This document shows, one piece after another, positions 38,448 to 63,544 of a DNA stretch of 64,000 nt. The position numbers and the translations under genes are program-made. The DNA comes from Nitrospiraceae bacterium (GTDB taxonomy: Bacteria > Nitrospirota > Nitrospiria > Nitrospirales > Nitrospiraceae), in contig CAKKRE010000016.1 of assembly GCA_919902505.1 (NCBI GenBank), positions 62,001 through 126,000 on the forward strand, read 5' to 3'. Below the pieces are notes generated by a model. That model made no database searches, was not told the DNA's origin, and saw only the letters and a program-made list of their open reading frames with translations. Position 1 is the first letter of the stretch. Each line of letters begins with the position of its first letter.

Positions 38448-38478
38448 GGGACGACTCCTGTGGCTCGCTCCGCACCTG

Positions 38479-45929: not shown

Positions 45930-45959
45930 GCACCTGGCCGCCTCACTCGGGAGGTCATC

Positions 45960-46961
45960 ATGGACGTTGCGGTCATTGCCAACGAAATCAAACGCGGCGA
46001 CCTCCTCGATATGTACTACTACCTCCGGTTGACGAGAAGCCTGGAAGACCGGATCAGCGCGCTCTACCGGCAGGGCCGCATCGTCGGCGGCGTCTATACG
46101 AGTCATGGGATGGAGGCGATCGCCGTCGGTTATGCCTCGGCGCTGAGGCCGGATGACGTCATTGCGCCGTTTCACCGCGATATGGGCGCGTTTCTCATTC
46201 GCGGCTTTTCCCCCGGAGAAATCATCGCCCAGTACCTCGGCAAGCAGGGTGGCCCTACCAAAGGAAAAGACGGCAATGTTCATATGGGCGATTTGAAACG
46301 CGGGATGATCGGATTCGTCAGCCATCTGGCCGACAACATGCCGGTCGCCGCAGGCGCGGCGCTGGCCTTCAAGATCAGAGGAGAGTCCCGCGTGGCCTTT
46401 GCCGGAACCGGCGACGGAGGAACGAGTCGAGGCGACTTTCATGAAGCCATGAACTTTGCGGCGGTGCGGCGGCTGCCGGTCGTGTTCTTCTGCACCAACA
46501 ATCAATATGCCTATTCCACGCCGGTGCGGTATCAAATGGCGATTACCGATGTGGTCGAGCGGGCGAAAGCCTACGGAATGCCGGGCGAGATTGTGGACGG
46601 CAATGATGTGGCGGCCGTCTACCTCGCATCTCAGCGAGCCATCGCCAAGGCCCGGGCCGGCGAAGGCCCGACCTTTCTCGAATTTAAAACCATGCGGATG
46701 CATGGCCATTCCGAACATGACGCGGCCAAGTACGTCCCGCGCGAATTGCTGGAAGAATGGAAAGCCAAAGATCCCATCTTGAGAGCCGAACGTCTGGTGA
46801 CGCAGTTAGGGTATGGCGATGAATCGTATTTTCATGAGGTGGGAGAACGGGCCAAGAAAGAAGTCGACGAAGGGACGAAGTTCGCCGAACAGAGCCCCTT
46901 GCCGGACGGGCAGGAGACCCTGGTGGGAGTGTTCGCCACAGCAGACGAGGTGCACCCATGA
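45960..46961 (+). CDS. 2-Oxoacid dehydrogenase E1 alpha subunit (branched-chain or pyruvate type)
   Basis: The 333-residue subunit binds thiamine diphosphate through GDGGTSRGDFHEAMNFAAVRRLPVVFFCTNNQYAYSTP (the GDG...NN motif). The KGKDGNVHMGDLKR and HGHSEHDAAKYVPRELLEEWK blocks are typical of the PdhA/AcoA/BkdA1 group. With E1 beta it decarboxylates a 2-oxoacid. The surrounding leucine, valine and propionate genes make branched-chain 2-oxoacids the likely substrate, but sequence alone cannot exclude pyruvate. ATG 45960 has GGGAGG upstream, and its stop overlaps the E1 beta start by four bases. Confidence 0.9.
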   Translation: MDVAVIANEIKRGDLLDMYYYLRLTRSLEDRISALYRQGRIVGGVYTSHGMEAIAVGYASALRPDDVIAPFHRDMGAFLIRGFSPGEIIAQYLGKQGGPTKGKDGNVHMGDLKRGMIGFVSHLADNMPVAAGAALAFKIRGESRVAFAGTGDGGTSRGDFHEAMNFAAVRRLPVVFFCTNNQYAYSTPVRYQMAITDVVERAKAYGMPGEIVDGNDVAAVYLASQRAIAKARAGEGPTFLEFKTMRMHGHSEHDAAKYVPRELLEEWKAKDPILRAERLVTQLGYGDESYFHEVGERAKKEVDEGTKFAEQSPLPDGQETLVGVFATADEVHP

Positions 46962-47950
46962 CGACCGCGACGCTCACTCAGGAGGTTACCTACGTAGACG
47001 CGATTTCGCAGGCCCTGGATGAAGAGATGAGCCGAGACGAGCGTGTCTTTCTGATGGGCGAAGACATCGGCGCCTACGGCGGGGCGTTTAAGGTCACGGA
47101 GGGGTTCCTCGAAAAATATGGCGAATGGCGCGTGCTGGACACGCCGATTTCCGAGTCCGGCATTGTGGGCGCGGCTATCGGCGCGGCCATGATGGGATTG
47201 CGGCCGGTGGTGGAAATGCAGTTTGCGGACTTCATCTCCTGCGCCTTCGACCAGATCACTGAAGTGGCGGCCAAGAACCATTATCGCTGGGGTGCGGCAG
47301 TCCCCATGGTCATCCGGGCACCGTTCGGCGGCGGCGTTCACGGCGGTCCATTTCACTCCGAATGCCCGGAAGGTTGGTTCTTCCATTCTCCCGGGCTCAA
47401 GATTGTCGCTCCTTCAACACCCTATGACGCAAAGGGACTGTTGAAGGCGGCCATTCGCGACCCAAATCCCGTCCTCTACTTTGAACACAAGTTTCTCTAC
47501 CGCCGGATCAAAGCGACCTTGCCGCAGGAGGATTACATCGTTCCCCTCGGAAAGGCAGAGGTCAAACGAACAGGCCGCGACGTCTCGCTCATCACGTACG
47601 GAGCGATGGTCCATCTGGCCCTGGAAGCGGCGGAACTGTTGGGCAAAGAAGGAATCGACCTTGAGGTGGTGGACCTTCGCACTTTGATCCCCCTCGACAA
47701 AGAGACGATTTACGCATCGGTGCGCAAAACCAGCAAGGTCATCCTTCTGCACGAGGACAACAAAACCGGCGGGATCGGGGCCGAAATTTCCGCATTGCTG
47801 GCGGAAGACTGCTTCGACTGCCTGGATGGGCCGATTCTCCGCATCGCCCCGCCGGACACGCCGGTGCCGTTCAGCACACCGCTGGAAGAATTCTTTCTGC
47901 CCAAAGTGAGCGACATCGTCGCGGGAGCGAAGAAGTTGGCGGCCTATTGA
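46958..47950 (+). CDS. 2-Oxoacid dehydrogenase E1 beta subunit
   Basis: The 330-residue partner of E1 alpha has the transketolase pyrimidine-binding block (VFLMGEDIGAYGGAFKVTEGF), ISESGIVGAAIGAAMMGLRPVVEMQFADF and the C-terminal transketolase domain (VILLHEDNKTGGIGAEISALLAED). It completes the alpha2beta2 E1 and contacts E2. ATG 46958 overlaps the E1 alpha stop. The subunit is of normal length. A hairpin-forming spacer follows before E2. Confidence 0.92.
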   Translation: MTTATLTQEVTYVDAISQALDEEMSRDERVFLMGEDIGAYGGAFKVTEGFLEKYGEWRVLDTPISESGIVGAAIGAAMMGLRPVVEMQFADFISCAFDQITEVAAKNHYRWGAAVPMVIRAPFGGGVHGGPFHSECPEGWFFHSPGLKIVAPSTPYDAKGLLKAAIRDPNPVLYFEHKFLYRRIKATLPQEDYIVPLGKAEVKRTGRDVSLITYGAMVHLALEAAELLGKEGIDLEVVDLRTLIPLDKETIYASVRKTSKVILLHEDNKTGGIGAEISALLAEDCFDCLDGPILRIAPPDTPVPFSTPLEEFFLPKVSDIVAGAKKLAAY

Positions 47951-47964
47951 ACTAAGAATGATGA

Positions 47965-48034
47965 AGCTCTCAGCTTTCAGCCCTCAGCAGGAGAGTTTCT
48001 GAAGCTGACAGCTGACCGCCGAAAGCTGAGAGCT
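47965..48034 (+). repeat. Inverted repeat between E1 beta and E2
   Basis: AGCTCTCAGCTTTC (47965-47978) is exactly repeated in reverse complement at 48021-48034, with AGCTGA-like units between them. The right arm ends one base before the GGAGG ribosome site of E2, so the stem could affect E2 translation or message stability. Confidence 0.7.
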
Positions 48035-48044
48035 GGAGGTCGAA

Positions 48045-49202
48045 GTGGCGACCGACATTGTGATGCCCCAACTCGGTGAAAGCATCGCGGAAGGGACCGT
48101 CGTCAAATGGCTGATCCCTCAAGGCGGAGCTGTCGAAAAAGATCAGCCGCTCCTGGAAGTGGAAACCGAGAAGGTCGCCCTGGACATTCCCTCTCCTGCG
48201 ACAGGGTTCCTCATCGAGATACTTGTGCCTGAAGGAACAACCGTTCCGGTGGGAACAATGCTGGCCAGGCTCGATTCTCAGCCGGCATCCGGCGTCGTCA
48301 ATCGTGTCGGGGGCGTGACGGTCCGGCCGATGGAGGCAGGACCGAACGAGCATCACTACTCCCCCGCCGTTCGACAACTGGCGAAAGAACATGGCCTGGA
48401 TCTCTCCGCGATCACAGGAACCGGCGAGGGCGGGAGAATCACGAAGCATGACCTGCTGGACGTGATCGGCAAGCGTAAATCGACCGGCAGCTTGCAGGGC
48501 GCGTTGGCCGCAACGCCATCCCCGCCTCCCATCTCCACGCATGAAGAGATCGTGCCTCTGTCTCAAATGCGAAAGACCATCGCCGAACGCATGGTCCAGA
48601 GCCGGCACACGGCGGCCCATGTGGCGACATTTTTCGAAGCGGACTTCAGCGGCATAACCAGGTTTCGAGAGGGCCGCGCGCTCACGTATCTGCCGTTCGT
48701 GATCAGCGCCGTCACGCGCGCCATCAAAGAACACCCGCTTCTGAATTCCTCCTGGCGGGAGCAGGGACTCGTGATCAAGCAAGGCATGCATATCGGCATC
48801 GCAGTGGCGCTCGACGACGGCCTCCTGGTTCCCGTCATTCGGCATGCCGATCGCAAAGGACTGAGCCAGATTGCCGATGAGATAACAGACCTTGCCGAAC
48901 GAGCCAGGAGCAAGCGGTTAAGACCAGACGAAGTCCAGGACGGCACCTTCACCATCACCAACCACGGCGGCTTCGGCAGTCTTTTCAGCACTCCCATCAT
49001 CAATCAGCCGCAGACCGCCATCCTCGGAGTGGGATCGGTGCAGAAGCGCACTGTGGTTATCAACGATGCCATCGCGATTCGCGCTATGTGTTACCTGAGC
49101 CTCTCGTTCGACCATCGGGTGATCGATGGCGCCACCGCCGACCGCTTCATGGCCAGGGTGAAACAGTATCTTGAAGAGAGCGACTGGGAGAAACTGCTGT
49201 GA
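48045..49202 (+). CDS. Dihydrolipoamide acyltransferase E2 of a 2-oxoacid dehydrogenase
   Basis: The 385-residue E2 has one lipoyl domain (1-80, lipoylated Lys in EVETEKVALDI), a peripheral-subunit-binding domain (about 105-145, HHYSPAVRQLAKEHGLDL and GEGGRITKHDLL) and a catalytic acyltransferase domain ending in LSFDHRVIDGATADRFM (catalytic His and Asp). It carries the acyl group from E1 to CoA. GTG 48045 has GGAGG five bases upstream. E3 is not encoded nearby. Its stop overlaps the next gene's GTG by four bases. Confidence 0.93.
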   Translation: MATDIVMPQLGESIAEGTVVKWLIPQGGAVEKDQPLLEVETEKVALDIPSPATGFLIEILVPEGTTVPVGTMLARLDSQPASGVVNRVGGVTVRPMEAGPNEHHYSPAVRQLAKEHGLDLSAITGTGEGGRITKHDLLDVIGKRKSTGSLQGALAATPSPPPISTHEEIVPLSQMRKTIAERMVQSRHTAAHVATFFEADFSGITRFREGRALTYLPFVISAVTRAIKEHPLLNSSWREQGLVIKQGMHIGIAVALDDGLLVPVIRHADRKGLSQIADEITDLAERARSKRLRPDEVQDGTFTITNHGGFGSLFSTPIINQPQTAILGVGSVQKRTVVINDAIAIRAMCYLSLSFDHRVIDGATADRFMARVKQYLEESDWEKLL

Positions 49203-50383
49203 ACGCCAGACACCATGCCGTCATCGTGAGCGCAGCCCGAACCCCGATGGGCAGCTTCAACGGAAGCTACAGCTCCATCCCGGCCACCAAGCTCGGGAGC
49301 CTCGCCATCGCCGAAGCCGTAAAACGCATCCAACTGCCGGGTGATCGGATCGACGAAGTCCTGATGGGATGTGTGCTCAGCGCGGGATTGGGCCAGGCAC
49401 CGGCCAGACAGGCGGCCATCGGCGCGGGGCTGCCTCATTCCGTCGGTGCGGTGACCGTCAATAAGGTCTGCGGATCCAGCCTGCAGGCCGTGATAATGGC
49501 GACAAGGGCCATCGCCTTGGGAGAAGCGAACATCATGGTGGCCGGTGGAATGGAAAACATGACACGAGCCCCCTTCCTGCTGGAGAAGGCCAGGCAAGGC
49601 TACCGACTGGGGCACGGTGAGCTGACCGACAGTTTAATCAAAGACGGGCTCTGGGATGTCTACAACCAGTTTCACATGGGGAATGCGGGGGAGTTGTGCG
49701 CGGCCAAGTATCGATTGTCGAGACAGGACGTCGACGACTTCGCCCTGGACAGTTACAGCCGGGCCCGTGACACAATCGCCCGCGGCGCCTTCAAGAAAGA
49801 GATCGTTCCGGTCGAAGTGCCGCAGAAAAAGGGAGCGCCGGTCCTCATCTCGGACGACGAGGAACCGAATCGGGTGGATCTGACCAAGTTGCGCCAGCTC
49901 ACACCGGTCTTTCAGGACGATGGAGTCCTCACCGTGGGCAACTCCCCCTCCTGCAACGATGGAGCGGCAGCATTGGTCATCATGGATGAAGAGGAGGCCG
50001 CCCGGCTTGGCCTCGCGCCGATGGCCCGTATCGTCGGTTATGCCGGTGCGGCGCTGGCACCGGAATGGTTCACGATTGCGCCGGTCGAAGCGATCCGGCG
50101 ACTGTTGAAACAAACAGGACTGTCGGTCAACGACATCGACCTGTTCGAGATCAACGAAGCGTTCTCGGCTGTCTCCCTGGCGATCAATCGTGAACTCGGC
50201 CTCGATCCCAAGAAGGTCAACGTCAACGGCGGAGCGGTGGCCCTGGGTCATCCCATCGGCGCCACTGGAGCCAGGATCTTAACGACGCTGCTGTACGCCA
50301 TGAAGACGCACGACGTCCATCGCGGGCTGGCCGCCCTCTGCATCGGAGGCGGAGAAGCGCTCGCCCTCATCGTGGAGCGGTGA
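49199..50383 (+). CDS. Acetyl-CoA C-acetyltransferase (thiolase)
   Basis: The 394-residue thiolase has the acylated Cys in VNKVCGSSLQAVIMA (about 90), VNGGAVALGHPIGATGARIL with His, and CIGGGEALALIVE with the second Cys. It belongs to the short-chain acetoacetyl-CoA type by length and motif. GTG 49199 overlaps the E2 stop. Next to a 3-hydroxybutyryl-CoA dehydrogenase and a butyryl/isobutyryl-type mutase, it probably cleaves acetoacetyl-CoA (or 2-methylacetoacetyl-CoA) to acetyl-CoA. Confidence 0.94.
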   Translation: MNARHHAVIVSAARTPMGSFNGSYSSIPATKLGSLAIAEAVKRIQLPGDRIDEVLMGCVLSAGLGQAPARQAAIGAGLPHSVGAVTVNKVCGSSLQAVIMATRAIALGEANIMVAGGMENMTRAPFLLEKARQGYRLGHGELTDSLIKDGLWDVYNQFHMGNAGELCAAKYRLSRQDVDDFALDSYSRARDTIARGAFKKEIVPVEVPQKKGAPVLISDDEEPNRVDLTKLRQLTPVFQDDGVLTVGNSPSCNDGAAALVIMDEEEAARLGLAPMARIVGYAGAALAPEWFTIAPVEAIRRLLKQTGLSVNDIDLFEINEAFSAVSLAINRELGLDPKKVNVNGGAVALGHPIGATGARILTTLLYAMKTHDVHRGLAALCIGGGEALALIVER

Positions 50384-50396
50384 ACCAGGGATCGTT

Positions 50397-51278
50397 ATGA
50401 CGATCGACGACATCAAAACCATCGGGGTCGTAGGCGCGGGACAGATGGGGCGCGGCATCACGCAGGTGCTGGCCACGGCGGGGTGGAATGTCCTCCTGGT
50501 CGATGCAACGGAGGAGGCACTGGAAGAGGCCATCAAGAAAATCTGGCAAGGTGTGACGAAAGCAGTTGAAAAAGGCGCGCTGCGGGGCGATCAGGCCGGA
50601 TCGGCCATGGCGATCATTCATCCAATGAAGCACATGCAACGCTTACGAGAGGCACAAGTGGTGATCGAAGCGATACCGGAAGATCCCGTCATGAAACGAG
50701 CGCTGTTCGCCCAGTTGGGGCAAGTCTGTGAACCATCGGCCGTCCTGGCCAGCAATACGTCCTCGATTTCGATCGCGAGCCTGGGCATGGCCTCGGGTCG
50801 TCCCGATCGCGTCGTCGGCATCCATTTTATGAACCCCGTCCCGGTCATGCGGCTGGTCGAAGTGGTGCGCGCCATCGAAACCTCGGAGCATACGCTGCAA
50901 CTCGCCCTGGAGCTGGTCCGGCACGCGGGGAAAACCGCGGTGGTCTGCAAAGATTTCCCCGGCTTCATCGTCAACCGGGTCCTCATTCCCATGATTAATG
51001 AGGCGGTCTTTGCACTGGAGGAAGGCGTCGCAACGGCCGAAGCGATCGACCTGGCGATGGTGGAAGGGACCAACCATCCCGTGGGTCCCCTGGCCTTGGC
51101 CGACCGCATCGGTCTGGATACGGTGCTCGCCATTTGTGAGGTGCTGCATCACGATCTGGGAGACCCCAAGTTCCGCCCCTGTCCCCTGCTGCGCAAGTAT
51201 GTCGAAGCCGGTCGGCTCGGGAGAAAGAGCGGGCATGGATTCTATGTGTATGGAGAGCAGCCGGTGAATGTGAGCTGA
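50397..51278 (+). CDS. 3-Hydroxybutyryl-CoA dehydrogenase
   Basis: The 293-residue single-length Hbd has GVVGAGQMGRGITQVLATAG at the NAD site, HFMNPVPVMRLVEVVRA with the catalytic His, and KDFPGFIVNRVLIPMINEAVFALEEG. This short form typically acts on (S)-3-hydroxybutyryl-CoA. ATG 50397 has AGGGA upstream and is 13 bases after the thiolase. It likely oxidises 3-hydroxybutyryl-CoA made from butyryl-CoA (valine carbon) or from the fatty-acid side. Confidence 0.94.
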   Translation: MTIDDIKTIGVVGAGQMGRGITQVLATAGWNVLLVDATEEALEEAIKKIWQGVTKAVEKGALRGDQAGSAMAIIHPMKHMQRLREAQVVIEAIPEDPVMKRALFAQLGQVCEPSAVLASNTSSISIASLGMASGRPDRVVGIHFMNPVPVMRLVEVVRAIETSEHTLQLALELVRHAGKTAVVCKDFPGFIVNRVLIPMINEAVFALEEGVATAEAIDLAMVEGTNHPVGPLALADRIGLDTVLAICEVLHHDLGDPKFRPCPLLRKYVEAGRLGRKSGHGFYVYGEQPVNVS

Positions 51279-51308
51279 CGTGTTCGTTCCTTCCCGGAGG
51301 GCCGCGTC

Positions 51309-52904
51309 ATGAACGAGCGGAAATCTCGTTTCTCCTCCCTCTCTGGATTAGACATCGAACGGGTCTACAGCCCTGACCATCTGAAGGGTTGGAGCGTCGA
51401 GCAGGATCTTGGCCAACCAGGCTCATTTCCCTACACCCGCGGCATCTACCCGAACATGTACCGCAGCCGCCTCTGGACCATGCGGCAATTCGCCGGTTTC
51501 GGTTCCGCGGACGATACGAATCGGCGCTTCAAGTATCTCCTGGCGCAGGGACAGACCGGCCTCAGCGTCGCCTTCGACCTGCCGACGCTCATGGGCCTTG
51601 ATGCCGATGATCCGATGGCCCGGGGCGAAGTGGGCCACTGCGGCGTGGCCATCTCCTCACTCGCCGACATGGAACGGCTGTTCGACGGCATCCCGCTCGA
51701 CCAGGTCACCACCTCGATGACGATCAACGGGCCGGCTGCGGTACTCTTTGCCATGTACCTGGCCGTGGCAGAAAAGCGCGGCATCCCGTTCGACCGACTC
51801 GGCGGCACGATTCAAAACGATATTCTGAAAGAATATATCGCGCAAAAGGAGTGGCTCTTCCCGCCCGAACCGCACATCGCGATCATCGTCGATACGATCG
51901 CCTACTGTGCCGCTCATGTCCCTAAGTGGCATCCGATCAGCATCAGCGGATACCACATCCGGGAGGCAGGCTCGACAGCCGTTCAAGAACTCGCGTTTAC
52001 ACTCTACGACGGACTCACCTATGTGGATGCGGCCGTGAAGTCCGGCCTCGATGTGGATGCCTTCGCGCCGCAACTCTCCTTCTTCTTCAACGTGCACAAT
52101 GACTTCTTCGAAGAGATCGCCAAGTTCCGGGCCGCCCGGCGCCTGTGGGCGCGTGAAATGGAGCAACGGTACCACCCGAAGAATCCCCGCTCCCTCCAAC
52201 TCCGCTGTCACGCCCAGACGGCCGGCTGCTCCTTGACCGCCCAACAGCCGATGAACAACGTGGTGCGCACCACCCTCCAGGCCCTGGCCGCGGTGCTCGG
52301 CGGGACACAATCGCTCCACACCAACTCGATGGATGAAACCCTGGCGCTCCCCACAGAAGAAGCGGTGACGCTGGCCCTGCGGACACAACAGGTCATCGCC
52401 TCCGAGAGTGAAACGGTCAACTGCGTGGATCCGTTGGGCGGCTCCTACTTTGTCGAATCGCTGACGAACCGATTGGAAGAGGGAGCAAGGGACTATTTCA
52501 AAAGGCTGGATCAGATGGGTGGAATGGTGGCGGCGATCGAACACGGTTTTCCGCAGCGGGAAATCCTCGATGCCTCACAACGGTATCAAAAAGAGATCGA
52601 ACACAAGGAGCGGCCCATCGTCGGCGTCACCGACTATGTGGAACAGGAAACACGTTCCCTTCCCATTTTGAAGATCGGACCGGAAGTGGAACAGGAACAG
52701 GTCGCACGCTTGTCCGATCTCAGAAAATCGCGTGATCCCTTCAAGATGGCCGGCTCGTTGGAGGAATTACAGGAAACGGCCGCCTGCCACCAGAATCTCA
52801 TGCCGGCTCTGATTGAAGCCGTAAAGGCGAAGGCGACGTTGGGAGAAATTTGCGCCGCGTTGAAGGAAGTGTATGGAACCTATCGCGAGCCGGTGGTGTT
52901 ATGA
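51309..52904 (+). CDS. icmA: B12-dependent acyl-CoA mutase large subunit, probably isobutyryl-CoA mutase
   Basis: The 531-residue TIM-barrel subunit lacks the B12-binding domain, which is encoded separately at 53740. In methylmalonyl-CoA mutase, Tyr89 and Arg207 bind the substrate carboxylate. Here the RQYAGF position reads RQFAGF (Phe61) and the MVRN position reads IAQK (Gln179). They are 118 residues apart, the same as 89/207 and the isobutyryl-CoA mutase pair Phe80/Gln198. The enzyme therefore probably interconverts isobutyryl- and butyryl-CoA. [14 protein letters not shown] and [14 protein letters not shown] are otherwise typical. ATG 51309 has GGAGGG upstream; its stop overlaps the MBL gene by four bases. 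Confidence 0.85.
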
Positions 52905-54147: not shown

Positions 54148-54160
54148 GAGGATGTCCGAA

Positions 54161-55765: not shown

Positions 55766-55791
55766 AGAGCGCGGCGGCTGAGGAGGCACGA

Positions 55792-56640
55792 ATGCGTCGA
55801 TATACGACCCTGGCGATGGAATCGCACGGCGACATCCGCTGCATCACGCTCGACAGGCCTGAACGGCGCAACGCCTTCGACAGCCGGATGATGAGTGAAC
55901 TGACTCAGGCATTCGACGAATCGGCTCAGGAGCCGTCCCTGAGAGGAATACTGCTATCCAGCACCGGGCCTGTTTTTTGCGCCGGGGCCGATCTCCAATG
56001 GATGCAATCCACGTCTCCGGTCTCGGATGCCCAGGCCACAGATGACGCCCACCGCCTTACCCGCATGTATCGCGCCATCGACGAATCTCCCTGTCCGGTC
56101 ATCGCCCGGGTGCAAGGGCCTGCCTTCGGAGGCGGGCTCGGACTGATGGCGGTCTGCGATATCGTCGTCGCGGCAGAGGATGCGACGTTCTCGCTCAGCG
56201 AGGCCAGACTCGGTTTGATCCCCGCGGTCATCGCACCCTTTCTCCTACGCAAGGCAGGCGAGTCGTTTCTTCGACGGTATGCGCTGACCGGCGAAACATT
56301 CACCACATCAGTGGCTCACCGATTCGGCCTCGTGCACGACGTCGTCTCTCAAGGCGATCTGGACGATCGCATCACGGAACTCATCGACGCCATCAGGCAG
56401 CTGGCTCCCGGCGCAACCAGGAACACAAAACAGTTACTTCTGACGATACGCCCGTTGACCGATCAAGAGCGCGAGATGACTTGCGCAGAAGCCAACGCCG
56501 AAGCCCGTTGTACCCCCGAGGCGGCTGAAGGGCTCCGCGCCTTTTCGGAGAAGCGGCCACCGCACTGGGCCAACGGACAGAACCAGCAGTCAGATCGCGA
56601 AATGCCGAAGGATCGCCATGTTGCAAGCCGGCCTACATAA
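55792..56640 (+). CDS. Enoyl-CoA hydratase family, likely methylglutaconyl-CoA hydratase
   Basis: The 282-residue crotonase-fold protein has LDRPERRNAFDSRMMSELTQAF, SSTGPVFCAGADLQWMQS, GPAFGGGLGLMAVCDIVVAAE and LSEARLGLIPAVIAPFLLRKAG. In the mccB-HMGL pair it most likely hydrates 3-methylglutaconyl-CoA to HMG-CoA, the step between carboxylase and lyase in leucine degradation. GTG 55762 is open, but ATG 55792 has GAGGAGG six bases upstream. It overlaps the lyase gene by 23 bases. Confidence 0.85.
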   Translation: MRRYTTLAMESHGDIRCITLDRPERRNAFDSRMMSELTQAFDESAQEPSLRGILLSSTGPVFCAGADLQWMQSTSPVSDAQATDDAHRLTRMYRAIDESPCPVIARVQGPAFGGGLGLMAVCDIVVAAEDATFSLSEARLGLIPAVIAPFLLRKAGESFLRRYALTGETFTTSVAHRFGLVHDVVSQGDLDDRITELIDAIRQLAPGATRNTKQLLLTIRPLTDQEREMTCAEANAEARCTPEAAEGLRAFSEKRPPHWANGQNQQSDREMPKDRHVASRPT

Positions 56641-57565
56641 CTCGCGCCGGGCCCCGGTCCGGATCACCGAGGTGTCTCCACGCGACGGGCTCCAACACGA
56701 AGCGAACTTCGTCCCGACCTTGCGAAAAATCGCCTTGATCAATGCGCTGTCACGTACCGGCGTGACTGAGATTGAAGCGGGCTCCTTCGTGTCATCCGCG
56801 GCCATCCCGCAGCTTGCGGATTCCGATGAGGTCCTCCGCGCCATCGACCGCATCCCGGGTGTCACCTATTCGGCCCTCGTTCCGAATGAACGAGGCCTCG
56901 AACGGGCGAGGGCGGCAGGCGTCGATAAGATCGCCGTCTTCACGGCTGCCTCGAACAGCTTCACCCGCCATAACATCAAAGCGACCGTGCAGGAATCGCT
57001 CGTGCGCTTCAGGCCGATTGTGGCAGCAGCGAAACGAGACGGCATGGCGGTGAGAGCCTACCTGTCCACAGTCGTATTCTGTCCCTATGAAGGCCGGGTT
57101 CCGCCCACGCAGGTACGGGACGTGATGGAACGGCTGCTCGACCTCGCGGTCGACGACATCTCGTTGGGCGAGACGGTCGGCAAGGCTTCGCCGACGGACA
57201 TACGGAGATTGCTCGATACGGTGCTGCCGCATGTCGAGCCGGCTCACCTCTCGCTCCATTTCCATGACACCTATGGCATGGCAGTCGCCAATGCCCTCAC
57301 GGCCTGGTGGGACTATGGGATCACGGCGTTCGATGCTTCGGCTGGAGGCCTCGGCGGCTGTCCCTACGCTCCCGGCGCATCCGGGAATGTCGCGACGGAA
57401 GATCTGGTCTTCGCGCTGAAAGCCTCCGGCGCTAACGTGCCGGTGGATGAGATGCTGGTTGCCGCCTGTGCGCAACAACTCGGTGACGCCGTGCGGCATC
57501 CGCTGAACTCGCGGCTTTCGCAACTCCATCATCGTGAAAAGCCACAGCCTGCGTGGCGGGAATGA
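56618..57565 (+). CDS. Hydroxymethylglutaryl-CoA lyase
   Basis: The 315-residue enzyme splits HMG-CoA into acetoacetate and acetyl-CoA, the final step of leucine breakdown. It has the EVSPRDGLQHE metal/arginine motif, TAASNSFTRHNIKATV, the HFHDTYGMAVANALTAW metal ligands and the Cys loop GGLGGCPYAPGASGNVATEDL. ATG 56618 has AAGGA six bases upstream and overlaps the hydratase end. It is followed directly by meaB. Confidence 0.94.
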   Translation: MLQAGLHNSRRAPVRITEVSPRDGLQHEANFVPTLRKIALINALSRTGVTEIEAGSFVSSAAIPQLADSDEVLRAIDRIPGVTYSALVPNERGLERARAAGVDKIAVFTAASNSFTRHNIKATVQESLVRFRPIVAAAKRDGMAVRAYLSTVVFCPYEGRVPPTQVRDVMERLLDLAVDDISLGETVGKASPTDIRRLLDTVLPHVEPAHLSLHFHDTYGMAVANALTAWWDYGITAFDASAGGLGGCPYAPGASGNVATEDLVFALKASGANVPVDEMLVAACAQQLGDAVRHPLNSRLSQLHHREKPQPAWRE

Positions 57566-57566
57566 C

Positions 57567-58340
57567 ATGAATCACGCGTGCGTCGGTCGAGTATCGAAAC
57601 GGGAGGATGTCGAGACCATGGCCAAGCAAGTGCTGGCCGGTGGGGTCCGGGCTGTGGCGCGCGTGATCACCTGGATTGAGAACCAGGAGCCGGTTGGAGC
57701 CGCCGTGTTGAAACGCCTGACGCCACCGGAGAAGCGCGCCATGGCGATCGGCATCACGGGTTATCCCGGCACGGGGAAGAGCACGTTGATCGATCAACTC
57801 ATCGCCGCCTACCGCCGCCTCGGCAAAACGGTCGGCGTCCTGGCGGTGGATATCAGCAGCCCTCTCACCGGCGGGGCGGTGCTGGGTGACCGGATCAGGA
57901 TGCAGCGGCACGCGGACGATTCGGGAGTCTACATACGCAGCATGGCAACCCGCGGTCAGTCCGGTGGGCTCGCGCGGGCGACTCGCGATGCGCTGCAAGT
58001 CCTGGAGGCGGCCGCGTATGACGTGATCCTGATCGAAACGGTCGGCGTCGGCCAGAACGACATCGAGGTCGTCTCGGTGGCCGGAACCGTCATTGCCCTG
58101 GTCGCGCCTGGATTGGGCGACGACGTGCAAGCCATGAAGGCCGGGTTGCTGGAGGTGGCGGATATCGTGGTCGTCAACAAAGGAGATCGCGAAGGCGCCG
58201 ATACTACAGTACGCGATCTACGCGAGTGGTGCCCGCACGTGCTGCGCACCGTGGCCGTGAAGGGAGAAGGCATTCCGGAGCTGATCGCCATGATTGCCGA
58301 ACAGCAACGGCTCCAGGATCTCGCCCACACACCGGGCTGA
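57567..58340 (+). CDS. meaB: MeaB-type G-protein chaperone of the B12 mutase
   Basis: MeaB loads and repairs cobalamin in methylmalonyl- and isobutyryl-CoA mutases. The 257-residue GTPase has GYPGTGKSTLID (Walker A), LAVDISSPLTGGAVLGDRIRMQRH (usually VDPSS), ETVGVGQND and NKGDREGAD (usually NKAD). It is shorter than typical members (about 300-330), mainly at the C-terminal dimerisation region, so it may be a minimal form. ATG 57567 is two bases after the lyase stop; the frame opens earlier at a GTG without a site. Confidence 0.9.
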   Translation: MNHACVGRVSKREDVETMAKQVLAGGVRAVARVITWIENQEPVGAAVLKRLTPPEKRAMAIGITGYPGTGKSTLIDQLIAAYRRLGKTVGVLAVDISSPLTGGAVLGDRIRMQRHADDSGVYIRSMATRGQSGGLARATRDALQVLEAAAYDVILIETVGVGQNDIEVVSVAGTVIALVAPGLGDDVQAMKAGLLEVADIVVVNKGDREGADTTVRDLREWCPHVLRTVAVKGEGIPELIAMIAEQQRLQDLAHTPG

Positions 58341-58369
58341 CAGAACGGCCGGTTGTCGAGAGGATCATC

Positions 58370-59773
58370 ATGCTGGCGGATCGTCTTGCGAGTTATACCC
58401 AGGCTCTTTGTTACGACGACCTGCCCGACGACGTGGTCCATGAGGTCAAGCGACGGATTCTCGACAGCGCCGGTTGTGCCTTCGGCGCCTGGAAGGCGAC
58501 TCCCTGCCGGATCGCACGTCACGTGGCACAATCCGCCAAAGTTCCCGGTGGCGCGACAATCTGGGGGACCACTCACAAAACGCTGCCGGACCTGGCCGCC
58601 TTCGCCAACGGCGCGTTGGTTCGCTACCTCGACTTCAACGATACCTATCTCTCGAAAGAACCGGCCCATCCTTCGGACAACCTTGCCGCAATCCTCGCCG
58701 CCGGAGAAATAGCCCATGCTTCGGGCAAGCGGGTCATCCAGGCCATCGCCTTGGCCTATGAAATCCAATGCCGGCTCTGCGACGCCGCCGCGTTACGCTC
58801 CCGTGGATGGGACCATGTGACCTATGGATCCATCTCGTCCGCGCTCGGCGTAGCCAAAACGCTGAAACTGACGGAAACGCAAACCACGCAGGCCATCAAC
58901 CTGGCCGCCGTGGCGAACGTGGCACTCCGGCAAACCAGAGTCGGCGACATGTCCATGTGGAAAGCCTGTGCGTTCTCGAATGCCGCACGCAACGGCCTCT
59001 TCGCGGCCATCCTGGCCCAACGAGGCATGACAGGCCCGGCCCCCATCTTTGAAGGCGAAAAGGGCTTCATGAAGCTGGTGTCCGGACCATTCGAGCTGTC
59101 GAGATTGGGTAGAGAGCGGGCTCCCGACGACACCCTGGCTTCGTTCAAGATTCTCGATTCCTACATCAAACATTTCCCGGTGGAATACCACGCCCAGACT
59201 GCGGTCGAAGCGGCACTGGCCCTGCGAACGGAGGTGATCAAGGCGGAAGGGACCGATGCAATCCAGCGCCTGAGCGAGATTGAAATCGGCAGTTACGATG
59301 TTGCGATCGAAATTATCGGGCGCGATCCGGAGAAGTGGCACCCGACGACGCGCGAAACGGCCGATCACAGCTTCCCCTATTGTGTCGCGGTGGCCTTGCT
59401 GGATGGTCGCGTGACCGTGCATTCATTCGACCCTCACCGGCTACGGGACCCCGCGCTGCACGAGCTCATGAAGAAGGTTCGTGTCGTCCCGCAGCCGGAA
59501 TTCGCGGGCCGTTACCCGCGAGCGATGCCGACCCGCCTCACGCTGAGGACGACGACGGGAACGGTGTACATGAGGCATGTGGACGTCCCCCTGGGCCATC
59601 CGGGCAATCCCATGTCGGACCAGGATGTGGAGGAGAAACTACGCCGGCTCGCATCGAGACGAATCGGTCGCGCGCAGGTCGAGAAGCTCATCGGTTTCGT
59701 GTGGACATTGGAACGAGAGAAAGACATCGCCACACTGATGCCTCTGTTGAGGGTACCCCATCGTGATGCGTAA
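58370..59773 (+). CDS. prpD: MmgE/PrpD family protein, likely 2-methylcitrate dehydratase
   Basis: The 467-residue protein has the PrpD blocks RRILDSAGCAFGAWKATPCR, LVRYLDFNDTYLSKEPAHPSDNLAAILA and the C-terminal SFPYCVAVALLDGRVTVHSF. It dehydrates 2-methylcitrate to 2-methylaconitate. The frame opens at 58226 within meaB, but ATG 58370 has GAGAGG upstream and starts the domain. Followed by a methylisocitrate lyase and a citrate synthase, it forms a methylcitrate-cycle set (AcnB-like hydration is presumably encoded elsewhere). Confidence 0.9.
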   Translation: MLADRLASYTQALCYDDLPDDVVHEVKRRILDSAGCAFGAWKATPCRIARHVAQSAKVPGGATIWGTTHKTLPDLAAFANGALVRYLDFNDTYLSKEPAHPSDNLAAILAAGEIAHASGKRVIQAIALAYEIQCRLCDAAALRSRGWDHVTYGSISSALGVAKTLKLTETQTTQAINLAAVANVALRQTRVGDMSMWKACAFSNAARNGLFAAILAQRGMTGPAPIFEGEKGFMKLVSGPFELSRLGRERAPDDTLASFKILDSYIKHFPVEYHAQTAVEAALALRTEVIKAEGTDAIQRLSEIEIGSYDVAIEIIGRDPEKWHPTTRETADHSFPYCVAVALLDGRVTVHSFDPHRLRDPALHELMKKVRVVPQPEFAGRYPRAMPTRLTLRTTTGTVYMRHVDVPLGHPGNPMSDQDVEEKLRRLASRRIGRAQVEKLIGFVWTLEREKDIATLMPLLRVPHRDA

Positions 59774-60707
59774 CCACTCCACTCCTTCAAAAGCACAACG
59801 CTTGCGTGAGCTGCTGGCCGGCAGGACGGTGGCCATCCCCGGCGCCTGTAATGCCCTGACGGCCATGCAAATCGAGCGCGCCGGATTCGAGAGCGTCTAT
59901 GTGTCGGGAGCCGCGATCTCGGCCGCCCGGGGCCTGCCCGATATCGGATTGATCGGCTTGACGGACATGACGCGGGAAGCATCTGCCATTGCCCAAGCGG
60001 TGACGCTTCCCACCATCGTCGATGCGGACACCGGCTATGGGCCGCCTTCGGTTGTGCGGGAGGCCGTTCAGGAATTTGAGCGGGCCGGATTGGCCGGCAT
60101 GCAGATCGAAGATCAGGAAGAGGCGAAGAAATGCGGCCATCTGTCAGGGAAGCGACTGATTCCAACGGCTGACATGGTTGCCAAGATCACCGCAGCCGTA
60201 GAGGCGAAACGCGATCGGGATTTCGTCCTTGTGGCGCGCACGGACGCACGGACCGTCGATGGGCTGCAGGCTGCCATTCAGCGAGGCCTCGCCTATGCCG
60301 AGGCCGGCGCGGATGCGCTCTTCCCCGAGGCCCTGCTCTCCGCGGACGAATTCGACACCTTTGCGTTGGAAATGAAACGGGCCGGTATCCACGTGCCCTT
60401 GATCGCCAACATGACGGAGTTCGGCAAGACCCCCTACCTGAGCGTCGACGAATTCGAGGCGTTGGGGTATCGAGGCGTGTTGTTTCCCGTCAGTACGCTC
60501 CGCGTCGCAGCCCTCGCGATTGAGAAGCTGCTGCGGGAGCTGAGATTCTTCGGCTCTCAACGGGCTTGGCTCGATCACATGATGACGCGACAGGATCTCT
60601 ACAGTCTGCTTCGATACGAGCAGGGGCAGGACCAGACAGGGAGGCCCTATGAACCAGGCGATACAAGAACAGCCCGGAACGAAAACCACGGAGCCGCCCC
60701 TCTATAG
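59766..60707 (+). CDS. prpB: Methylisocitrate lyase (PEP mutase/isocitrate lyase superfamily)
   Basis: The 313-residue enzyme cuts methylisocitrate to pyruvate and succinate. It has VDADTGYGPPSVVREAVQEFERAG and the active-site loop EEAKKCGHLSGK (KKCGH, the lyase form), with TDARTVDG and EALLS further on. ATG 59766 overlaps the prpD end; a GTG three bases earlier is also possible. The C-terminus overlaps the citrate synthase start by 59 bases, so its last about 20 residues are atypical. Confidence 0.9.
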   Translation: MRNHSTPSKAQRLRELLAGRTVAIPGACNALTAMQIERAGFESVYVSGAAISAARGLPDIGLIGLTDMTREASAIAQAVTLPTIVDADTGYGPPSVVREAVQEFERAGLAGMQIEDQEEAKKCGHLSGKRLIPTADMVAKITAAVEAKRDRDFVLVARTDARTVDGLQAAIQRGLAYAEAGADALFPEALLSADEFDTFALEMKRAGIHVPLIANMTEFGKTPYLSVDEFEALGYRGVLFPVSTLRVAALAIEKLLRELRFFGSQRAWLDHMMTRQDLYSLLRYEQGQDQTGRPYEPGDTRTARNENHGAAPL

Positions 60708-61827
60708 CCCCGGACTTGAAGGGGTGATCGCAGGGGAATCGGCCCTCTGTCAGGTGGATGAAGGAGAGGCCGGACTTCGTTATCGGGGGTATGCCATCGG
60801 CGATCTGGCGGAATGGAGCCGCTTCGAGGAAGTCGCCCATTTGCTGCTGATCGGCCATCTCCCCACCCGGAACGAACTGGATGGTTTTTCCACCCTGCTG
60901 AGAGGCCATCGAGTCCTGCCCGATCCGGTGCAACGTTTCGTGGACCACCTGCGACCGGGTCTGCACCCGATGGACGTGCTGCGAACGGGCGTCTCCCTGC
61001 TGGGCCTTAGCGATCCCGACGCGCAGGATGGATCGCATGAGGCCAATCTCCGCAAATCCATGCGGCTGCTGAGCCAGATCCCGCTGCTGATCGCGCATAG
61101 TCATCGAGTCATGTCCGGAACAGTCCCGCAGAGACAGGACGAGAGTCGAGATTTTGCGCAGCACCTGCTGCACCTGGTGGCAGGCCACAAGGACGGTGAC
61201 AGCGGCGCGGCCATGGCTCAGGCGCTGAACGTGTCGCTCATCCTCTACGCGGAGCATGAGTTTAATGCCTCCACGTTTGCCGCTCGCGTCACCGCCTCGA
61301 CCCTCACCGACCTGCATGGCGCGATCACGGCGGCCGTCGCGACGTTGAAAGGGCCGCTCCATGGAGGCGCCAACGAAGCGGTGGCGTCGATGCTCATTGA
61401 AATCGGCCGGCCGGATCACGCAGAGGCATGGGTGAGGAAGGCGCTCGCGGAGAAGCGGAGAGTGATGGGATTCGGGCATCGCGTGCTTCGGCAGGGCGAC
61501 GCACGATCAGCCATCATCCAGCGCCACGCCGAACGGCTCAGCCACCTCTGCGGCGACCACAGCTGGTACGACATCGCCGCTACCCTCCACCGCATCATGC
61601 GGGAGGAAAAAGGACTCCATCCCAATCTCGACTTCTATACGGCCGTGGCCTACCTGTTGATGGGCATCCCGCGTGAACTGTCCACCCCGTTGTTCGTTTG
61701 TTCCCGCATCACCGGCTGGTGCGCACATGTGATGGAGCAGCAGGAGCATAACCGATTGATCAGACCACGAGCCCTCTACACGGGGCCCTCACCGAGGACC
61801 TATGAGCCTCTTGACCGACGTCCATGA
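60649..61827 (+). CDS. prpC: 2-Methylcitrate synthase (citrate synthase family)
   Basis: The 392-residue protein condenses propionyl-CoA with oxaloacetate in this context. Citrate synthase residues are visible: the LHGGANEAVASML His, GFGHRVLRQGDAR His and the HPNLDFYTA Asp. ATG 60649 has GGGAGG four bases upstream, so translation starts inside prpB. Citrate and methylcitrate synthases are close; the linkage to prpB and prpD supports the methylcitrate role. It overlaps the ligase gene by 26 bases. Confidence 0.87.
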   Translation: MNQAIQEQPGTKTTEPPLYSPGLEGVIAGESALCQVDEGEAGLRYRGYAIGDLAEWSRFEEVAHLLLIGHLPTRNELDGFSTLLRGHRVLPDPVQRFVDHLRPGLHPMDVLRTGVSLLGLSDPDAQDGSHEANLRKSMRLLSQIPLLIAHSHRVMSGTVPQRQDESRDFAQHLLHLVAGHKDGDSGAAMAQALNVSLILYAEHEFNASTFAARVTASTLTDLHGAITAAVATLKGPLHGGANEAVASMLIEIGRPDHAEAWVRKALAEKRRVMGFGHRVLRQGDARSAIIQRHAERLSHLCGDHSWYDIAATLHRIMREEKGLHPNLDFYTAVAYLLMGIPRELSTPLFVCSRITGWCAHVMEQQEHNRLIRPRALYTGPSPRTYEPLDRRP

Positions 61828-63523
61828 CAGAATCGAGCAGGCCCGCGAGGCGCCAGGATGTTCCTCTGAACTCCACTGGACCTCGTTCGCCGAGTTCTTC
61901 CGATCACGCCTGTACGACCCGCGACTCGTCACCAGGAATTTTTTGACCTATTGCGACGACGACCGGAACTTGCGCCGAACCTACAGTTATGCGGAATTCG
62001 GCACGATCGTGGAACGGATGGCGGAGATGTTTCATGCGAAGTTCGGCCTGACCCGCGGCGACCGGATCGCCACCGTGCTGTTCAACCATGATCTGACGGC
62101 GCTGATCTACTTCGCAGCCTGGACGTTGGGAGTCGCCGTCGTGCCGATCAATGTCGAAGAAACACCCGAGAAGAAGCGGTATATCCTCGAACATTCGGAG
62201 GCCTCGGTTGCCCTCTGCTGGCAGGATGTCTACGAGGAACTCAACGCCCTTCAGTCCATGCTGCCGGCCTTGCGGGAAGTGGTCGCCCTGGGAGACGGTG
62301 GCATCCTTGACGGGAAGGAAACCAGGGGAAAGAGCCGAAAGAACAGCCACGCCGTTGGAGCCCGCGTTGCCCCGGGCACCTCCCGACTCGACGATCCTGC
62401 CTTGATCATTTACACATCCGGGACAACCGGGGCGCCGAAAGGCGTCATCCTGACGGTCGCCAATCTTCTGATCGATGCGGATGCCATCGCCGACCGGCAT
62501 GGCTTCGGTCTCACCGACCGTTTGATGTGCGTCCTGCCCATCCACCATGTCAACGGCATCGTCGTCACGCTGATGACTCCGTTTTATTGTAAGGGAAGCG
62601 TCGTGTTGAACCGGAAGTTCAAGACCGGCAGCTTCTGGCGACGACTCCACGAAGAGCAGGTGACCAGTGTCAGCGTCGTCCCCACCTTGCTTGAGTTTCT
62701 TCTGGATGCCGACGAAGACCTCGCCGCCTATAGCCTGGATCGCTTCGGCGGTGTGATCTGCGGCGCCGGGCCGCTGCTGAAGGACACGGCCCTGCGCTTC
62801 GAAGATCGTTTTGGCTTTCCGATCCGCCATGGATACGGTCTGTCTGAAACAACCTGCTATTCCTGTTTCCTCCCGAACGACCTCACACGGGAAGAACATC
62901 GTCACTGGCTCACAGATTTTGATTTCCCCTCGATCGGAACGGCTCTGCGTCATAACGAGATGGCGGTTCTCGACGAATACGGGAAACCGGTTCCTGAGCA
63001 CAAGCGTGGAGAAATCTGCATCCGGGGACGCACAGTCTGCGCCGGCTATTTCAAACGGGATGACGCGAACGAGGCCGCCTTCCAGTGGGGTTGGTTCCGT
63101 TCAGGCGACGAAGGCTTTTATATCGCCGACGACCGGGGACGCGCGTTCTTGTTCATTTCAGGCCGCTTGAAAGAACTCATCGTTCGCGGCGGCGTCAATA
63201 TTTCCCCGTTGGAAATCGACGACGTGTTGAAGGGACACCCGGCCGTGCAGTTCGCCATGGCCATCCCCTTCGAAAATCGCTACTACGGCGAGGAGATCGC
63301 CGCCTATATCGTGCCGAAACACCCGGCATCCCCCCCGACAGAGGCGGACATCCTCTCCCATTGCCGCGGACGGTTGCCGTTTGCCAAACAACCGAAAGTG
63401 CTGTTGATGGGTACGGAGGTGCCTTACACCTCCACCGGGAAACCCAAGCGCTTGGAATTGGCATCCCGGTTGGCGGGCACCCTGGCTCAATATCGTGACA
63501 GACAATTCAAAGATCCTGGTTGA
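61802..63523 (+). CDS. AMP-forming acyl-CoA synthetase
   Basis: The 573-residue ligase has IYTSGTTGAPKGVILT, GYGLSETTCYSCFLPN, the hinge GWFRSGDEGFYIADDRGRAFLFISGRLKELIVRGGVNISPLEIDD and YTSTGKPKRLELAS with the C-terminal Lys. It activates a carboxylic acid; its operon place suggests propionate, isovalerate or a related branched acid, but the substrate is not shown by sequence. ATG 61802 overlaps the prpC end by 26 bases. Confidence 0.88.
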   Translation: MSLLTDVHDRIEQAREAPGCSSELHWTSFAEFFRSRLYDPRLVTRNFLTYCDDDRNLRRTYSYAEFGTIVERMAEMFHAKFGLTRGDRIATVLFNHDLTALIYFAAWTLGVAVVPINVEETPEKKRYILEHSEASVALCWQDVYEELNALQSMLPALREVVALGDGGILDGKETRGKSRKNSHAVGARVAPGTSRLDDPALIIYTSGTTGAPKGVILTVANLLIDADAIADRHGFGLTDRLMCVLPIHHVNGIVVTLMTPFYCKGSVVLNRKFKTGSFWRRLHEEQVTSVSVVPTLLEFLLDADEDLAAYSLDRFGGVICGAGPLLKDTALRFEDRFGFPIRHGYGLSETTCYSCFLPNDLTREEHRHWLTDFDFPSIGTALRHNEMAVLDEYGKPVPEHKRGEICIRGRTVCAGYFKRDDANEAAFQWGWFRSGDEGFYIADDRGRAFLFISGRLKELIVRGGVNISPLEIDDVLKGHPAVQFAMAIPFENRYYGEEIAAYIVPKHPASPPTEADILSHCRGRLPFAKQPKVLLMGTEVPYTSTGKPKRLELASRLAGTLAQYRDRQFKDPG

Positions 63524-63544
63524 CCGGATCGGGCGAGGTACCAC

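Follow-up and report, generated by a model that had tools for sequence, protein, structure and literature searches.

We analysed a stretch of 64,000 nucleotides from a Nitrospiraceae bacterium (assembly GCA_919902505.1, contig CAKKRE010000016.1; G000:C16:62001-126000 in our numbering), referred to below as the window. The genome measures 4.24 Mb in 84 contigs and is listed as 100% complete with 1.51% contamination. From position 45960 to beyond 63545, the plus strand of the window carries a catabolic operon that includes a B12-dependent acyl-CoA mutase. All of its genes lie on that strand, and from E1-alpha through the acyl-CoA dehydrogenase the distances between neighbours range from −59 to +94 bases. 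We consider it probable that this operon is devoted to the catabolism of branched-chain amino acids by a predicted pathway that avoids methylmalonyl-CoA, valine passing through isobutyryl-CoA mutase (ICM). This reading draws on the genes and their order, on specificity residues of the mutase, on the absence of alternatives at model cut-offs and on conservation of the genes as a unit. The operon comprises the following features (scores in bits; PDB, Protein Data Bank).

45960..46961, plus strand: E1-alpha subunit of a 2-oxo-acid dehydrogenase, probably the branched-chain enzyme (BCKDH); models of the pyruvate dehydrogenase (PDH) type below cut-off; best PDB chain 1um9_A, named '2-oxo acid dehydrogenase alpha subunit'
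46958..47950, plus strand: E1-beta subunit of the same complex; NF006667 (generic E1-beta) 359.3 against 321; best PDB chain 1um9_B
48045..49202, plus strand: E2 lipoyl acyltransferase; E2 models, all below cut-off
49199..50383, plus strand: thiolase, which would cleave acetoacetyl-CoA and/or 2-methylacetoacetyl-CoA; TIGR01930 456.6 against 240.55
50397..51278, plus strand: dehydrogenase of the 3-hydroxybutyryl-CoA dehydrogenase type (HBD); PRK07530 372 (cut-off 420), PRK05808 367.5 (cut-off 408)
51309..52904, plus strand: icmA, adenosylcobalamin-dependent acyl-CoA mutase large subunit of predicted ICM type, 531 residues; F61/A88/Q179; TIGR00641 754.7 against 303.8
52901..53749, plus strand: metallo-beta-lactamase-fold hydrolase between the mutase subunits; PF00753
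53740..54147, plus strand: icmB, separate B12-binding subunit; TIGR00640 148.7 against 57.45; PF02310
54152..55765, plus strand: mccB, acyl-CoA carboxyltransferase beta subunit of the 3-methylcrotonyl-CoA carboxylase (MCC) type; scores against PDB chains
55762..56640, plus strand: ech, crotonase family, candidate methylglutaconyl-CoA hydratase; crotonase-family models, none shown above cut-off
56618..57565, plus strand: hmgl, 3-hydroxy-3-methylglutaryl-CoA (HMG-CoA) lyase; PRK05692 371.7 against 246
57567..58340, plus strand: MeaB G-protein chaperone, 257 residues from the likely start; TIGR00750 276.6 against 240.75 over profile positions 1-238 of 300, on the longer open reading frame; PF03308
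58370..59773, plus strand: MmgE/PrpD family, candidate 2-methylcitrate dehydratase; PF03972, PF19305; PrpD equivalog models below cut-off
59763..60707, plus strand: 2-methylisocitrate lyase PrpB; TIGR02317 355.2 against 354.4, barely above
60649..61827, plus strand: 2-methylcitrate synthase or citrate synthase II; TIGR01800 446.3 against 421.3
61802..63523, plus strand: AMP-forming acyl-CoA ligase; PRK06187 320.1, below the cut-off of 476
63545..64000, plus strand: acyl-CoA dehydrogenase of 665 residues that extends past the window (L124:545-2542); PF00441

The product of icmA is the only PF01642 mutase found by a profile search of the whole genome. In alignments with PDB chains (4r3u, 6oxc, 8gju, 2xij), its Phe61 stands opposite the tyrosine of one bacterial and two mitochondrial methylmalonyl-CoA mutase (MCM) chains and opposite the isoleucine of 2-hydroxyisobutyryl-CoA mutase (HCM; 4r3u), its Gln179 opposite the MCM arginine and the HCM glutamine, and, at a third position, its Ala88 opposite an aspartate of 4r3u. 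An earlier, sequence-only reading of this DNA had placed Phe61 and Gln179, 118 residues apart, at the Tyr/Arg positions of MCM, and the alignments bear this out, phenylalanine and glutamine being found there instead of tyrosine and arginine. The spacing also equals that of the R. rubrum MCM determinants Tyr-92 and Arg-210, which PMC7238569, in the part available, gives after Jost et al. When the MCM and HCM chains and an annotated fused ICM, IcmF, are compared, the combination of Phe61, Ala88 and Gln179 (F/A/Q) is shared with IcmF alone. The other two parts expected of an ICM, a B12-binding part and a G-protein chaperone, are likewise encoded in the operon, as had been claimed; both icmB and meaB score above the cut-offs of TIGR00640 and TIGR00750 and lie on the plus strand. 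The three discriminating residues, being those of annotated IcmF, support the prediction that the window mutase is of the ICM type.

The same residues recur far beyond the window. They are present in all 30 mutase loci that were fetched for residue reading from the source genome and relatives of its order; icmA is matched in 38 of the 61 genomes of the order set (the source genome and 60 relatives). Relatives in other genomes were represented by 80 matches listed from a GTDB scan, spread over more than a dozen phyla; 65 have F/A/Q and 15 have Y/A/R (hereafter F/Q and Y/R), a proportion tilted toward the F/Q type since the scan was seeded with the window mutase. Occurrence in 30 of 30 order loci and 65 of 80 listed relatives indicates that the residue pattern is not due to chance.

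Control loci were two from a Xanthobacter autotrophicus Py2 plasmid and others from Methylibium, Agrobacterium, Streptomyces, Marinobacter, Niveispirillum, Deinococcus, Halostagnicola and Ideonella. With the exception of Ideonella, their records go no further than 'methylmalonyl-CoA mutase (family)' in naming the substrate, and no annotation is given for the Niveispirillum stretch. F/A/Q was read in Deinococcus, in Halostagnicola and in the fused IcmF of Ideonella (name from the record), Y/A/R in Streptomyces canus, Marinobacter and Niveispirillum, and L/L/N in Xaut_5043, which we take to be pivalyl-CoA mutase. Three loci with an HCM-type gene order, in Xanthobacter (Xaut_5021), Methylibium and Agrobacterium (L133, L134, L137), have I/D/Q; Methylibium possesses HCM according to the accessible part of PMC2847961. 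Three other assignments were rejected for the window mutase: MCM, because of Phe/Gln in place of Tyr/Arg and because the genome has no second carboxyltransferase resembling that of propionyl-CoA carboxylase (PCC) or MCC; HCM, because of Phe61/Ala88 in place of Ile/Asp; and the Xaut_5043 type, because of F/A/Q where that protein has L/L/N.

In a 97-row quick tree (Streptomyces IcmA and IcmF, L142, not being among them), the F/A/Q label changes three times, against a mean of 20.2 after shuffling, and the Y/A/R label changes once, with a support of 48; the HCM-type rows fall within the F/Q set. The window mutase clusters with its order relatives and then with the mutase of Candidatus Scalindua rubra, at 99% in the Shimodaira–Hasegawa-like approximate likelihood ratio test. 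With 29 of 94 inner branches open and three long rows, the deeper order of this tree is unsure.

The usual valine route runs through 3-hydroxyisobutyrate, and the sequence-only reading held that it is not encoded at the locus. In agreement, model searches recognised none of its genes among those of the operon. In the genome as a whole, the best match to methylmalonate semialdehyde dehydrogenase (MMSDH, TIGR01722) scores 230.7 bits, the cut-off being 448.5; none of 31 genomes exceeds this value, and 5 of 14 controls do. For 3-hydroxyisobutyrate dehydrogenase (HIBADH, TIGR01692), the best match has 207.7 against 291.6 bits and again none of the 31 genomes is above, an absence that is weak because only one of the 14 controls passes. 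The 3-hydroxyisobutyryl-CoA hydrolase family ECH_2 (PF16113) has two matches in the genome above the Pfam cut-off (112.6 and 110.7 bits); both are crotonases of this locus and both are partial (positions 1-256 and 3-187 of 335), there being no full-length match in the genome. The sequence-only reading had suggested a search for the hydrolase and HIBADH elsewhere in the genome; a full-length match to the former and an above-threshold match to the latter were not found, a result qualified by the HIBADH cut-off, which few controls pass, and by sub-threshold relatives. At model cut-offs, the genome yielded no enzyme for the conversion of methylmalonate semialdehyde to propionyl-CoA or of methylmalonyl-CoA to succinyl-CoA. 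We assign valine to the mutase because these customary steps of valine and propionate degradation are apparently missing.

In the pathway that we propose, the E1/E2 dehydrogenase would turn valine, leucine and isoleucine into isobutyryl-CoA, isovaleryl-CoA and 2-methylbutyryl-CoA, respectively. ICM would straighten the carbon chain of isobutyryl-CoA to give butyryl-CoA in a B12-dependent reaction, and one of the genome's two acyl-CoA dehydrogenases may oxidise butyryl-CoA to crotonyl-CoA. The best candidate for hydration of crotonyl-CoA to 3-hydroxybutyryl-CoA is a crotonase of the adjoining minus-strand operon, after which HBD and thiolase of the main operon would produce acetoacetyl-CoA and two acetyl-CoA. 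The minus-strand operon (33122-41403) is a second beta-oxidation set with an acyl-CoA ligase, next to the main operon, and includes the following genes.

33122..35047, minus strand: second acyl-CoA dehydrogenase, 641 residues; PF00441
36328..37116, minus strand: enoyl-CoA hydratase, the candidate crotonase for crotonyl-CoA; PRK07658 312.1 against a cut-off of 313
37224..38597, minus strand: 3-hydroxyacyl-CoA dehydrogenase; FadJ-type, 370.5, below cut-off; match from residue 48 of the reading frame, the true start probably being internal
38479..39669, minus strand: second thiolase; TIGR01930 456.2 against 240.55

The genome's only two PF00441 acyl-CoA dehydrogenases both flank this locus, and PF01923, cob(I)alamin adenosyltransferase, occurs once in the genome. 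The sequence-only reading had the operon's thiolase and HBD finish the oxidation of butyryl-CoA; both enzymes are indeed there, but the crotonase lies in the minus-strand operon, outside the region that it considered.

Isoleucine would give acetyl-CoA and propionyl-CoA, and the latter could be converted to pyruvate and succinate via PrpC, PrpD and PrpB. PrpB, one of the enzymes sought for a methylcitrate cycle, is recognised by a margin of 0.8 bit (355.2 against 354.4 for TIGR02317). The model matched by the synthase at 60649..61827, TIGR01800, spans citrate synthase II as well, and PRK14033 and PRK12351 stay below cut-off for this gene. The earlier proposal that methylcitrate genes remove the need for MCM calls for a correction: methylcitrate-type genes are present and no other mutase was found, but the valine route would give no propionyl-CoA to feed them. 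Since valine would yield only acetyl-CoA, two molecules of it, by way of ICM, propionyl-CoA for the methylcitrate-type enzymes would have to come from isoleucine or other sources.

Leucine would be degraded through MCC, methylglutaconyl-CoA hydratase and HMG-CoA lyase. The mccB product scores 588-714 bits against PDB chains named MCC beta and 703 bits against 4q0g, the acetyl-/propionyl-CoA carboxylase AccD1. Genome-wide, PF01039 is found in three proteins, mccB, AccD and AccA (the latter two confirmed by curated models), and PF02785 in two, AccC beside the biotin carboxyl carrier protein BCCP (L125; both identities confirmed by curated models) and a 472-residue biotin carboxylase whose neighbour is a pyruvate carboxylase B-type gene (L126). 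Neither PF02785 match has a biotin domain of its own, and no dedicated biotin-carrying MCC alpha subunit was found in the genome. The leucine carboxylase would borrow AccC and AccB of fatty acid synthesis.

Across the order, the mutase, the 2-oxo-acid dehydrogenase and the methylisocitrate lyase are, in almost every genome, retained or lost together. A homologue of E1-alpha with at least 70% identity is present in 37 of the 61 genomes, and PrpB at E <1e-100 in 38. For icmA and E1-alpha, 36 genomes have both, two have only icmA (G008, G055), one has only E1-alpha (G028) and 22 have neither; for icmA and PrpB, the corresponding numbers are 37, one (G051), one (G028) and 22. Three of the exceptional genomes (G028, G051, G055) are 66-88% complete and G008 is 93% complete, and G016, a member of the source genus with 94% completeness, lacks icmA, E1-alpha and PrpB alike. 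The shared ancestry of the 61 genomes would inflate any p-value for co-occurrence.

Gene order was examined in seven stretches from six relatives. Four of these (G001, G004, G029, G030) have the order fah-(253-aa gene)-E1a-E1b-E2-thl-hbd-icmA-mbl-icmB-mccB-ech-hmgl-meaB-prpD-prpB, with an extra crotonase 3' of meaB in G004, G029 and G030. G039 and G040 lack mccB, ech and hmgl between icmB and meaB and have a 427-residue thiolase-domain protein there instead (PRK06365, 664.2 bits against a cut-off of 695; the two copies are 90% identical). The 28.9 kb stretch of G039, a distant relative, encodes E1/E2, thiolase, HBD, both mutase subunits, MeaB, PrpD, PrpB and a ligase without mccB, ech or hmgl, and also two acyl-CoA dehydrogenases of 383-384 residues, one of them immediately 5' of icmA; its other strand carries both electron-transfer flavoprotein subunits (alpha and beta) and a dehydrogenase of the Glu/Leu/Phe/Val (ELFV) family. 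That a mutase core exists in G039 and G040 without leucine genes suggests that it does not rely on neighbouring leucine genes, which would be expected of a core that serves valine. In G039 the thiolase-domain protein is followed on its 3' side by an OB-fold protein (PF01796), and the same pair lies 3' of icmB in Scalindua, where the two proteins are 73% (thiolase-domain) and 61% (OB-fold) identical to those of G039 by alignment, suggesting that the common cluster reaches beyond the mutase. The PRK06365-like thiolase-domain gene, with its OB-fold partner in G039 and Scalindua, lies at L145:11252-13011, L147:12403-13683 and L002:9240-11006.

The neighbours of the sister mutase in Scalindua include PrpB, PrpD, crotonase, thiolase and HBD, 37-51% identical to those of the window. 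Beside this mutase lie genes of lysine fermentation, a process that reaches crotonyl-CoA/butyryl-CoA: lysine 2,3-aminomutase, lysine 5,6-aminomutase alpha and 3,5-diaminohexanoate dehydrogenase are above cut-off, and the cleavage enzyme is just below it (369.6 against 382). Lysine-fermentation genes next to an ICM-type mutase (L002:12102-17683) were unexpected in an anammox bacterium. In a metagenome-assembled genome of Crenarchaeota (L067), genes resembling prpC, prpB, prpD, crotonase and thiolase lie on the strand opposite an F/Q mutase, and three loci of Acidobacteria have an F/Q mutase near an mccB-type gene, either alone (L011), with ech (L005) or with ech and hmgl (L009). Ideonella IcmF is followed by genes annotated as 3-hydroxybutyryl-CoA dehydrogenase and acyl-CoA dehydrogenase.

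Neighbourhoods of the 65 F/Q and 15 Y/R mutases among the matches listed were compared in 17 uncorrected tests, with the window proteins as probes and over loci of unequal length. Acyl-CoA dehydrogenase occurs within 4 kb of 19/65 F/Q but 0/15 Y/R mutases (p 0.016) and within 10 kb of 21/65 and 0/15 (p 0.008); at least one of HBD, thiolase and acyl-CoA dehydrogenase lies within 4 kb in 21/65 and 0/15 (p 0.008), and crotonase in 14/65 and 0/15 (p 0.06). Carboxyltransferase shows the opposite trend, 5/65 F/Q against 8/15 Y/R within 4 kb (p 0.0002) and 6/65 against 8/15 within 10 kb (p 0.0004).

A number of observations weigh against assigning the operon to branched-chain amino acids with valine passing through ICM. 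E1 and E2 score as generic or PDH-type rather than BCKDH-specific proteins; among PDB chains, those of PDH score above those of 2-oxoisovalerate dehydrogenase, and the scores do not separate BCKDH from PDH. The top PDB match of mccB, 9tps (721 bits), is named PCC beta, so that propionyl-CoA carboxylation is compatible with the sequence, although the remaining chains so named reach at most 273.6 bits. PrpD is assigned at the family level only, and both acyl-CoA dehydrogenases (641-665 residues) match, below cut-off, FadE-type models, not plain short-chain types. Sub-threshold relatives of the classic enzymes exist in the genome, four for HIBADH (best 207.7 bits) and three for MMSDH (best 230.7 bits). 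In G039, the best NCBIfam model of the ELFV dehydrogenase is glutamate dehydrogenase, below cut-off, and the nearest PrpC homologue (39%) is on the opposite strand. In the neighbour comparison, HBD/thiolase is not significantly enriched within either 4 kb (10/65 F/Q, 0/15 Y/R; p 0.19) or 10 kb (12/65, 1/15; p 0.44), MeaB shows no enrichment within 4 kb (18/65, 5/15; p 0.75), and the enrichment of acyl-CoA dehydrogenase (p 0.008-0.016) fails correction for multiple tests, which that of carboxyltransferase survives.

Three other explanations were considered, all of which we regard as unlikely. As the ICM reaction is reversible, the mutase might mainly convert n-butyryl-CoA to isobutyryl-CoA, providing branched acyl starters or, by reversal of further steps, branched amino acids. 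The adjoining beta-oxidation operon with its acyl-CoA ligase (33122-41403) would fit such a direction, as would the lysine-fermentation genes beside the Scalindua sister mutase, which would make butyryl-CoA. However, the rest of the operon is catabolic (HMG-CoA lyase, MCC-type beta subunit, PrpB), and icmA co-occurs with E1-alpha and PrpB across the 61 genomes. Slightly less probable still is a different substrate, be it 2-hydroxyisobutyryl-CoA, pivalyl-/isovaleryl-CoA or ethylmalonyl-CoA, or a relaxed MCM. The tree places HCM-type rows inside the F/Q set, isovaleryl-CoA is expected here from leucine, and IcmF is described in the accessible part of PMC10481361 as active on isovaleryl-CoA and pivalyl-CoA too. 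Yet the HCM-type loci have I/D/Q and Xaut_5043 has L/L/N, the Y/R rows are set apart by a single label change (with a support of only 48) and lie beside carboxyltransferase in 8/15 of the loci listed, and, as far as their stretches were examined, G039 and G040 retain the mutase but no leucine genes.

On a par with the latter, and thus also improbable, is the explanation that valine follows the ordinary 3-hydroxyisobutyrate route by means of divergent enzymes, the mutase being an accessory as in Streptomyces albus. The genome does contain sub-threshold members of the HIBADH and MMSDH superfamilies along with two crotonases, and S. albus responds to valine by inducing ICM as well as the classic route (PMC8176718, as far as accessible). 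Against this explanation, MMSDH, the source of propionyl-CoA in that route, is above cut-off in 0/31 genomes but in 5/14 controls, and no classic-route gene was recognised in the operon. We favour catabolism of valine through ICM. A more far-reaching version of this reading, which we advance tentatively and hold to be somewhat short of probable, is that the lineage degrades valine through ICM alone and that ICM and the methylcitrate enzymes together make up a self-contained module in which branched amino acids are handled without methylmalonyl-CoA. This module would be retained or lost as a whole across the order and partly shared with an anammox planctomycete, valine use would be strictly cobalamin-dependent, and the leucine carboxylase would rely on borrowed biotin subunits of fatty acid synthesis.

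Parts of this system have known counterparts. In Streptomyces, the large and B12 subunits of ICM, IcmA and IcmB, are separate, as they are in the window, and isomerisation of isobutyryl-CoA is linked to valine, which is known for Streptomyces and predicted here. However, in S. albus ICM expression rises when valine is fed (log2 5.2) and the proposed flow from isobutyryl-CoA through butyryl-CoA to ethylmalonyl-CoA runs beside the classic route (PMC8176718), so that ICM is a bypass there; here it is encoded within an operon for branched-chain amino acids, and the classic route was not found. The IcmF of Ideonella dechloratans shares F/A/Q with the window mutase, but is a fused polypeptide of 1096 residues with 38% identity over the aligned part. 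The isobutyrate degrader Syntrophothermus lipocalidus TGB-C1 resembles our case in having an ICM cluster in which N- and C-terminal mutase proteins are accompanied by a MeaB-like protein and an adenosyltransferase, followed by beta-oxidation to two acetyl-CoA (PMC5017805); it differs in using external isobutyrate anaerobically, and the part of that source available describes no link to BCKDH or methylcitrate. HcmA (4r3u; Methylibium plasmid locus L134) is the nearest solved structure by sequence (562 bits), and its locus clusters the B12 subunit, MeaB and the large subunit as in the window, but it has Ile and Asp where the window mutase has Phe and Ala. Finally, Liu/ivd-type operons for degradation of branched-chain amino acids end in MCM. 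The window shares with them a leucine branch with MCC-type beta subunit, candidate hydratase and HMG-CoA lyase; unlike them, it has ICM and methylcitrate-type genes, and no MCC alpha, MCM, MMSDH or second PCC/MCC-like beta subunit was found in the genome.

The chemistry and the idea of valine degradation through ICM are thus already known, and what looks new is the mutase as the apparent sole valine route, together with the joining of 2-oxo-acid dehydrogenase, ICM and methylcitrate-type genes into a single operon while the classic route is apparently missing. The sequence-only reading considered the mutase-based route unusual; this holds for its apparent role as sole route, but a link between valine and ICM has been published for Streptomyces, where it is a side route. 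Our literature search, which left out most subscription papers, found no paper joining Nitrospira with ICM and none joining ICM, valine and methylcitrate. The statement in the sequence-only reading that catabolism of branched amino acids has been reported for Nitrospira was not confirmed: PMC6050957, in its accessible part, concerns a branched amino acid transporter in Nitrotoga. The individual parts have precedents, and the apparently new combination is easy to test. If the proposal is correct, the name methylmalonyl-CoA mutase would be wrong for this gene across the order, where it is carried by 38 of the 61 genomes searched, metabolic models would mis-route valine, and B12 supply would limit the use of valine rather than that of propionate. 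Mis-naming may be broad, given the 65 unfused Phe/Gln mutases among the 80 matches listed by a scan tilted to its own type; most of the plasmid homologues examined bear the generic name methylmalonyl-CoA mutase.

Several further features of the locus deserve mention. The metallo-beta-lactamase-fold gene adjoins icmA in 29 of the 30 order loci, the 30th (L106) being incomplete, and its product is possibly a thioesterase or lactonase. The match of MeaB (57567-58340, about 257 residues) stops at position 238 of 300 in TIGR00750, and the C-terminal arm of standalone MeaB may be absent. No tandem repeats were found across positions 44000-64000, and an Rfam scan of the whole window, for instance for a cobalamin riboswitch, gave no match at the gathering threshold. 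Ammonia monooxygenase, sought as a sign of a comammox Nitrospira, was matched in 0 of 31 genomes, but as no control was matched either this negative is uninformative. A conserved 253-residue protein (45168-45929) between the FAA hydrolase and E1-alpha has no match in Pfam (E 1e-8) or NCBIfam (E 1e-15) and looks phosphoribosyltransferase-like by eye only. The region ahead of the operon (42343-45171) encodes glyoxalase/HPPD-like, homogentisate dioxygenase-like and FAA hydrolase-family proteins, with equivalog models below cut-off, and likely represents a tyrosine/homogentisate branch. Two or three genes of this branch also precede the operon in L147 and L149, and hmgA/fah do so in L144 and L148.

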